Source: Methanosphaera sp. BMS
Lineage (GTDB): Archaea; Methanobacteriota; Methanobacteria; Methanobacteriales; Methanobacteriaceae
Direction: 5' to 3'
DNA: 64,000 bases
NCBI RefSeq assembly: GCF_003268005.1
Contig: NZ_CP014213.1
Location: 1 to 64,000, forward strand
Made by a program: the position numbers and the translations under genes. Below are positions 49,363 to 50,641 of the stretch, one piece after another. The notes below the pieces were generated by a model. The model was not told where the DNA came from. It was given only the letters and a program-made list of their open reading frames with translations, and ran no database searches. Positions within the stretch are counted from its first letter, which is position 1. Every line of letters starts with the position of its first letter.

Positions 49363-49713
49363 ATGAATAGTAAACAATTAACACTAAAGGACTTAAATAT
49401 TAAGGATGAGCTAATTTTTATAAAATATTACTATAAATATCTGTTATCATATTGTCAAGAATATGACCTTCAATACAATGGGTTACTTGCTGTTGAAATC
49501 ATTAAGCTTGGGGAGTTTGTTGATCGGATTACTTCCGATGAGAATGCTGTAATAAAGGATAAGGATATGAAATATTTAATTAGAATAGCTGAAGGTAGGG
49601 TATTTAAGGAAATTGATGAATTATCGCCTATGTATAATCGTAAGAATACTCATGACATTCTTAAGATTCCACGATATAAAATGTATCATATTCTTGAAAG
49701 GCATGGTTTCTAA
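49363..49713 (+). CDS. Hypothetical helical protein
   Basis: 116 residues that I do not recognise. Mostly helical with alternating charged and hydrophobic residues (DLNIKDELIFIKYYYKYLLSYCQEY, VEIIKLGEFVDRITSDE, MKYLIRIAEGRVFKEIDEL). It ends in a basic segment (NTHDILKIPRYKMYHILERHGF) that could bind nucleic acid. No membrane segment or metal motif. GGGTTGG lies shortly before the ATG. It lies 230 bases upstream of the tailed Alba gene on the same strand, a possible but unproven link. Confidence 0.7.
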   Translation: MNSKQLTLKDLNIKDELIFIKYYYKYLLSYCQEYDLQYNGLLAVEIIKLGEFVDRITSDENAVIKDKDMKYLIRIAEGRVFKEIDELSPMYNRKNTHDILKIPRYKMYHILERHGF

Positions 49714-49945
49714 AATGGGTAAATATTTATCTTAGTTATTAATTTACCCTGGTATTCATAGCAATCATGTTTATATGTTTAACTGTTTATAATTATTCTA
49801 GCTTTACGTTAAATTATATTCTGTTATAGTCATAATTTATTTAAAGGGGATGTCATTCATTAATATTCACTTGATACAAATGAAAGAATATATTAAAAAA
49901 GTCATATATAAATATATATAGATAATGAAATTTAGAGGTTTTATG

Positions 49946-50641
49946 ATGAGCGAGCAATTATCATTCACACAATTATTACGTAAAAATGATTTTATCGAAG
50001 GCAATAACAGTACCGATGAAGAACCTATTGATATGGAAAATGACTTTGATCCTGATGAAAATATAGAAAATCTTGAAATGAAAACATTTGAAGAAGAAGC
50101 TAAACTTGTTGAAGAGGAAGAAGCCAGAAAAGCAGAGGAAGCCAGAAAAGCTGCTGAAGCTAAAAAAGCAGCAGAGGAAGCTAGAAAAGCAGAGGAAGCA
50201 AGGAAAGCTGAAGAGGCCAGGAAAGCTGAGAAAGCTCGGAAAGCTGAAGAAGCCAGAAAAGCTGCAGAAGCTAGAAAAGCAGAGGAAGCTAAAAGAGCCG
50301 CCGAAATTAAAAAAGCTGCCGAGGCTAGAAGAGCCGAACAAGCCAAAAGAATTGCTGCAATTGAAGAATCTGAAGATACAAGAGTCATATTCATTGGAAA
50401 TAAACCAGTCATGAATTATGTTTTATCAATCGTCACATTAATGAACAAAGATGTTAAAAGAATCAGCATAAAAGCAAGAGGAAAAGCTATTAACAGGGCT
50501 GTAGATGTTGCAGAAGTAGTCAGACACAAATTTGTGACTAAAACCCAAATTGAAGATATTCTAATAAATACCGAGGAACTATTCAGGGAAGATGGTTCTT
50601 CATCAAACGTTTCAACCATAGATATTATACTCAGGGTTTAA
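49946..50641 (+). CDS. Alba-domain nucleic-acid-binding protein with long Ala/Glu/Lys/Arg-rich N-terminal helix
   Basis: 231 residues in three parts. Residues 1-55 are an acidic segment (SEQLSFTQLLRKNDF, then STDEEPIDMENDFDPDEN). Residues about 56-140 are an almost unbroken run of ARKAEE- and AEARKA-type units, a coiled coil or single alpha-helix. Residues 143-231 are a complete Alba domain: VIFIGNKPVMNYVLSIVTLMN, the RISIKARGKAINRAVDVAE signature and TIDIILRV at the C-terminus. The Lys of IGNKPVMNYV is the DNA-binding, acetylatable lysine position of Alba. Typical Alba proteins have about 90 residues and no tail. The ATG has AGAGGT 6 bases before it; an upstream ATG adds 7 residues. A chromatin or RNA-binding role is inferred. 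Confidence 0.9.
   Translation: MSEQLSFTQLLRKNDFIEGNNSTDEEPIDMENDFDPDENIENLEMKTFEEEAKLVEEEEARKAEEARKAAEAKKAAEEARKAEEARKAEEARKAEKARKAEEARKAAEARKAEEAKRAAEIKKAAEARRAEQAKRIAAIEESEDTRVIFIGNKPVMNYVLSIVTLMNKDVKRISIKARGKAINRAVDVAEVVRHKFVTKTQIEDILINTEELFREDGSSSNVSTIDIILRV

Follow-up and report, generated by a model that had tools for sequence, protein, structure and literature searches.

Encapsulins take up cargo by way of cargo-loading peptides, short terminal peptides that route proteins to their destination. Motif-guided scaffold-and-client assembly is documented for bacterial microcompartments, with their encapsulation peptides (PMC12339742). In the Chlamydomonas pyrenoid, EPYC1 carries five Rubisco-binding motifs, and further such motifs are found on membrane and polysaccharide (starch)-binding proteins and on others of the same compartment (the system includes RBMP1/2 and SAGA1/2); this motif system is confined to one algal order (PMC10473226).

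In the titles and abstracts of the open-access literature we found no description of a motif-guided scaffold-and-client assembly in a methanogen, nor an earlier description of the tag reported below or of a tailed Alba in Methanosphaera. The window analysed here is a stretch of 64,000 nucleotides from the genome of Methanosphaera sp. BMS, which is a single contig of 2.87 Mb. It encodes a 231-residue protein with a C-terminal Alba domain, denoted Alba2 (Table 1).

Table 1. Features of the Alba2 locus, in window coordinates
Feature	Position	Strand	Basis
Alba2 coding sequence, 231 residues	49946..50641	+	profiles, structure matches, orthologues in about 10 Methanosphaera species
AGAGGT, ribosome-binding-site-like, before the ATG at 49946	49934..49939	+	sequence
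N-terminal address tag, residues 1-17 (MSEQLSFTQLLRKNDFI)	49946..49996	+	conserved in all readable Alba2 starts; common to other carriers
Acidic head, low-confidence (probably disordered), residues 18-46	49997..50083	+	AlphaFold2; similar in G112
Predicted continuous charged helix, residues 47-141	50084..50368	+	charge pattern, AlphaFold2; only G000 and G112
Alba domain, residues 145-231	50378..50638	+	profiles, structure matches, AlphaFold2
X1, 116-residue genus-specific protein, predicted four-helix bundle	49363..49713	+	precedes Alba2 in every neighbourhood read

The initial annotation had described a full Alba domain behind an acidic head, and both were borne out. The protein scored 62.1 bits against Pfam PF01918 (cut-off 25) and 111.6 bits against TIGR00285 (cut-off 88.25), and archaeal Alba crystal structures matched the domain with E-values down to 6e-25. 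Like other archaeal Alba proteins (Sac10b family), it has the GNKPVMNYVL and IKARGKAINRAVD motifs, and the core and nucleic-acid-contact motifs that we sought (GxKxxMNYV, RG and the F of the dimer-dimer region) are all present. The C-terminal domain is certainly Alba. The second, ordinary Alba whose presence the annotation wanted checked was found as the only other Alba in the genome, a 90-residue form (G000:C1:1730653-1730925). In an alignment with Alba1 the usual motifs are kept, with invariant columns at K153, M156-V159, R178-G179 and F196. Whereas the standard archaeal Alba is a stand-alone protein of about 90 residues, the Alba2 domain is preceded by a tag, the acidic head and a long helix.

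The 'ARKAEE' stretch comprises 89 residues (31 A, 25 E, 16 K and 12 R). Its attractive i/i+3 charge pairs number 39, whereas shuffled sequences give 15.4, and its hydrophobic moment is 0.02-0.05. AlphaFold2 predicted one unbroken helix over residues 47-141, with pLDDT exceeding 90 for most residues, preceded by a low-confidence stretch at residues 20-51; this agrees with the single rigid helix that had been thought probable. At 0.15 nm per residue, its roughly 95 residues would span about 14 nm. Opposite charges at i/i+3 and i/i+4 and the lack of a heptad core mark the stretch as a predicted single alpha-helix. It shares its A/K/R/E composition and charge spacing with ER/K and TolA domain II-like helices, and weak TolA profile matches were obtained, but the likeness is one of composition alone, with no homology shown. 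Plasmodium HRP, TolA and Borrelia P83 were all rejected as relatives of the helix, their matches being compositional. The claim that the repeat is encoded by varied codons holds for Ala (GCT/GCC/GCA) and Glu (GAA/GAG), and the five ARKAEE units are written in four DNA versions, but Lys is AAA throughout.

We searched 139 Methanobacteriaceae genomes, several of the relatives being incomplete MAGs, for the same architecture. The N-terminally extended second Alba was found in Methanosphaera only, in about 10 species, which is only about half of those in the genus; the long helix was found in just two of them, the window species (G000) and G112. In the other Alba2 proteins whose linkers could be read, a short stretch of roughly 30-55 residues rich in Asn, Asp and Glu takes the place of the helix. 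The G112 gene is broken by an assembly gap, which we left as is; its product retains about 92 residues of helix together with the acidic head (IDMxxDFDPDExIENLExKTFEEEA), and some constraint in the branch of G112 and the window species is therefore likely, in line with the selection on the protein pattern suggested in the initial annotation. In each of eight further genomes read, X1 precedes Alba2, and seven of the eight also have a TatD-type gene nearby. We rejected misassembly as the origin of the fusion: eight other genomes have Alba2 in a syntenic position, and the architecture recurs in G112, with its assembly gap inside. In a tree the Alba1 and Alba2 domains separate with moderate support (92/89) and several long branches. 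The Alba1 domain is identical in G117, G121 and G123 (L031, L025 and L024), and Alba2 diverges quickly.

The helix, which had been taken as the defining feature, is thus replaced by short linkers in the other readable proteins, and the conserved part of Alba2 is its N-terminal tag, an element absent from the initial annotation. All nine readable Alba2 starts open with MSxxLSFTQxLRxxxh[IT], with G usual at position 11, and AlphaFold2 predicted a short helix at residues 7-13. The same peptide recurs on other proteins (family consensus [ST]F[TIP][QED]x[LI]Rxx[GN]x[IL]), joined to them by flexible, often acidic linkers; the residues F, T, Q, L and R are conserved and the linkers diverge. Carriers within one genome encode the same peptide with different codons, which points to selection on the peptide rather than recent DNA copying and led us to reject a copied DNA repeat.

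When 20 Methanosphaera genomes were scanned with a degenerate DNA pattern for LSFTQxLR, 19 gave a match, and the reversed pattern gave none. Longer and looser patterns yielded 79 matches against 0 for the reversed controls and, in a relaxed search, 102 against 1; chance was rejected on these near-zero controls. Outside the genus, the pattern matched six times in 119 other Methanobacteriaceae genomes, and none of these matches, read by eye, encodes SFTQxLR. Among about 85,000 species there were 18 matching stretches, 13 of them from Methanosphaera or from rumen isolates titled 'uncultured Methanobacteriaceae' with the same genes; the peptide is not encoded in the remaining five. No viral contig matched the pattern, and a virus-borne motif was rejected. 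On sequence grounds, Alba2 is a genus-specific Alba paralogue bearing an address tag.

The carriers, listed from pattern scans that may miss variants, are scattered on the chromosome rather than clustered and belong to no one obvious pathway. LonA, a bacterial-type Lon (TIGR00763), has the tag at its N-terminus, ahead of the substrate-binding domain. A flavoenzyme resembling CoA-disulfide reductase, which scores below the equivalog cut-offs, carries it C-terminally, behind an acidic linker. Small tail-anchored carriers combine an N-terminal tag with a C-terminal transmembrane segment; we rejected Rifin as a relative of these small membrane proteins, its matches being compositional. In two species the small tagged protein (L062:2746-3033 and L074:4165-4431) has, in place of the transmembrane segment, a C-terminal stretch that may be an amphipathic helix (GFFSKIKKALGL and SFIGKLVETIKNIF). 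Pattern scans found no tail-anchored carrier in M. stadtmanae (G123), and with Alba2 in about half of the species, neither of these two proteins can be essential to the system.

These four carriers, Alba2 included, bear a single terminal tag; a fifth, scaffold-like protein bears 3-6. It is charged, probably disordered and roughly 230-590 residues long (at least 811 in G108), and had no match in Pfam. It has a conserved N-terminal block (NPENQKPHNISGKNPRSVQxLHKxQVKPKSQDK), and its C-terminus usually bears the variant tag TFIDLIRSEGLL. Its loci are L051, L078-L087, L047, L057 and L063, and its gene lies between genes that we take, by reading, for ThiC and DUF126 (PMDh small subunit).

Untagged versions of these proteins provide natural controls. 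Other genera have LonA and the flavoenzyme without the tag, and so does the divergent Methanosphaera G120 (L130 and L145), in which neither scaffold tags nor X were detected; the sole loose-pattern match there, SFIDLFSGIGGF, is a cytosine-methyltransferase-like motif and was rejected as a tag. In the LonA tree G120 splits off, on a long branch, before all tagged species. The simplest history would be that proteins already present acquired tags within Methanosphaera, and the system has the look of a recent extension of existing enzymes, restricted to the genus. Bacterial-type LonA was seen in Methanosphaera and two other sampled genera (g15 and g17), and the remaining sampled genera gave partial Lon matches only, probably to LonB (L128-L144).

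Within the family, X1 or a paralogue of it was found only in Methanosphaera, where 16 of the 20 genomes have one. X1 had no match in Pfam or in sequence searches, and comparison with the PDB gave nothing at E <= 0.001, the best match being a four-helix bundle (TM 0.59, E 1.9). A diverged relative lies within about 2.5 kb of a tail-anchored tagged gene in seven genomes, but X1 does not always have a tagged gene next to it, and X was not found in the tag-bearing genomes G118, G122 and G125 (all less than 88% complete). We regard X as a weak, tentative candidate for the receptor of the tag. One diverged paralogue is at L071:5909-6259, near a tail-anchored tagged gene.

We propose that the tag is probably an address motif for a multivalent assembly consisting of a scaffold, enzyme clients, a membrane tie and, in Alba2, a nucleic-acid tie. 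The tag would form a short helix and dock on a shared receptor that has at least two binding sites; a multi-tag protein could then cross-link such receptors into clusters or condensates. Clients of this assembly would be LonA and the flavoenzyme, the tail-anchored protein would tie it to the membrane, and Alba2 would tie it to DNA or RNA. The odd Alba fusion would then be explained as one client among several. In the window species and one relative, the long charged helix between tag and Alba domain could act as a stiff spacer, which would be its role at most. Of the three functions suggested initially (bridging DNA filaments, spacing nucleoprotein or recruiting partners), the last fits best because the tag is common to unrelated proteins across the genus. 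A bolder and rather doubtful reading is that the genus, M. stadtmanae included, has its own membraneless compartment, with a multivalent scaffold, X as tag receptor, and LonA and the flavin redox enzyme as tagged clients, joined in some species by a membrane anchor and the nucleic-acid-binding Alba.

The helix might instead be what is functionally new, acting as a rigid arm to bridge DNA filaments or space nucleoprotein. Its high-confidence prediction, its non-random charge pattern and the similar length in G112 speak for such an arm; yet every readable Alba2 has the tag and the other readable linkers lack the helix, so that bridging or spacing could hold for just two of the species seen, and we consider this reading unlikely. 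It is somewhat easier to imagine, though still improbable, that the helix arose in one branch by neutral growth of low-complexity sequence, with no particular function, as the freedom of linker length and composition to vary among other Alba2 proteins would allow. Neutral growth sits poorly with a charge pattern far from random, a similar length in two diverged species and repeat units that differ synonymously.

The tag, for its part, could be a peripheral membrane-binding amphipathic helix, or could self-associate, with no receptor required. In this short helix at the chain terminus, F, L and I share one side, and in two small carriers the far end is an amphipathic helix, not a transmembrane segment. 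However, conservation reaches about the same level at the polar T, Q and R as at F and L, which lipid partitioning would not call for; the tag also sits on carriers that already have a transmembrane anchor. We consider direct membrane binding or self-association quite unlikely. A regulatory signal, such as a modification site or a proteolysis signal, would fit the invariant Thr-Gln and Ser of the core and LonA being among the carriers, but LonA would then bear its own degradation signal, and assembly better suits a membrane-anchored carrier and a protein with 3-6 tags; we judge a regulatory tag very unlikely. Our preferred reading thus remains the tag as an address motif for assembly. The cell biology and origin of such systems are testable here, since G120 and the sister genera supply untagged controls and the cultured human-gut species M. 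stadtmanae has the core set.

Two known kinds of terminal peptide were set aside as explanations of the tag. The tag shares its short terminal position with encapsulin cargo-loading peptides, but PF04454 is absent from 20 of 20 Methanosphaera genomes, with control genomes positive, and encapsulin cargo was rejected. Mimicry of the FtsZ C-terminal peptide (SepF docking) was rejected as well, the Methanosphaera FtsZ ending in DLEGFIDDVF, unlike the tag. The tag differs in sequence from the encapsulation peptides of bacterial microcompartments, and Methanosphaera adds a multi-copy repeat protein and a membrane-anchored carrier. In layout, the algal pyrenoid is the closest documented case. The motif sequences are unrelated, and in the archaeal Methanosphaera system both the hub and the clustering are predicted; as with EPYC1, many copies sit on a scaffold-like protein and single copies on clients that include a membrane protein. 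In both, a short, lineage-restricted motif is carried in many copies by a repeat protein and also by membrane and other proteins.
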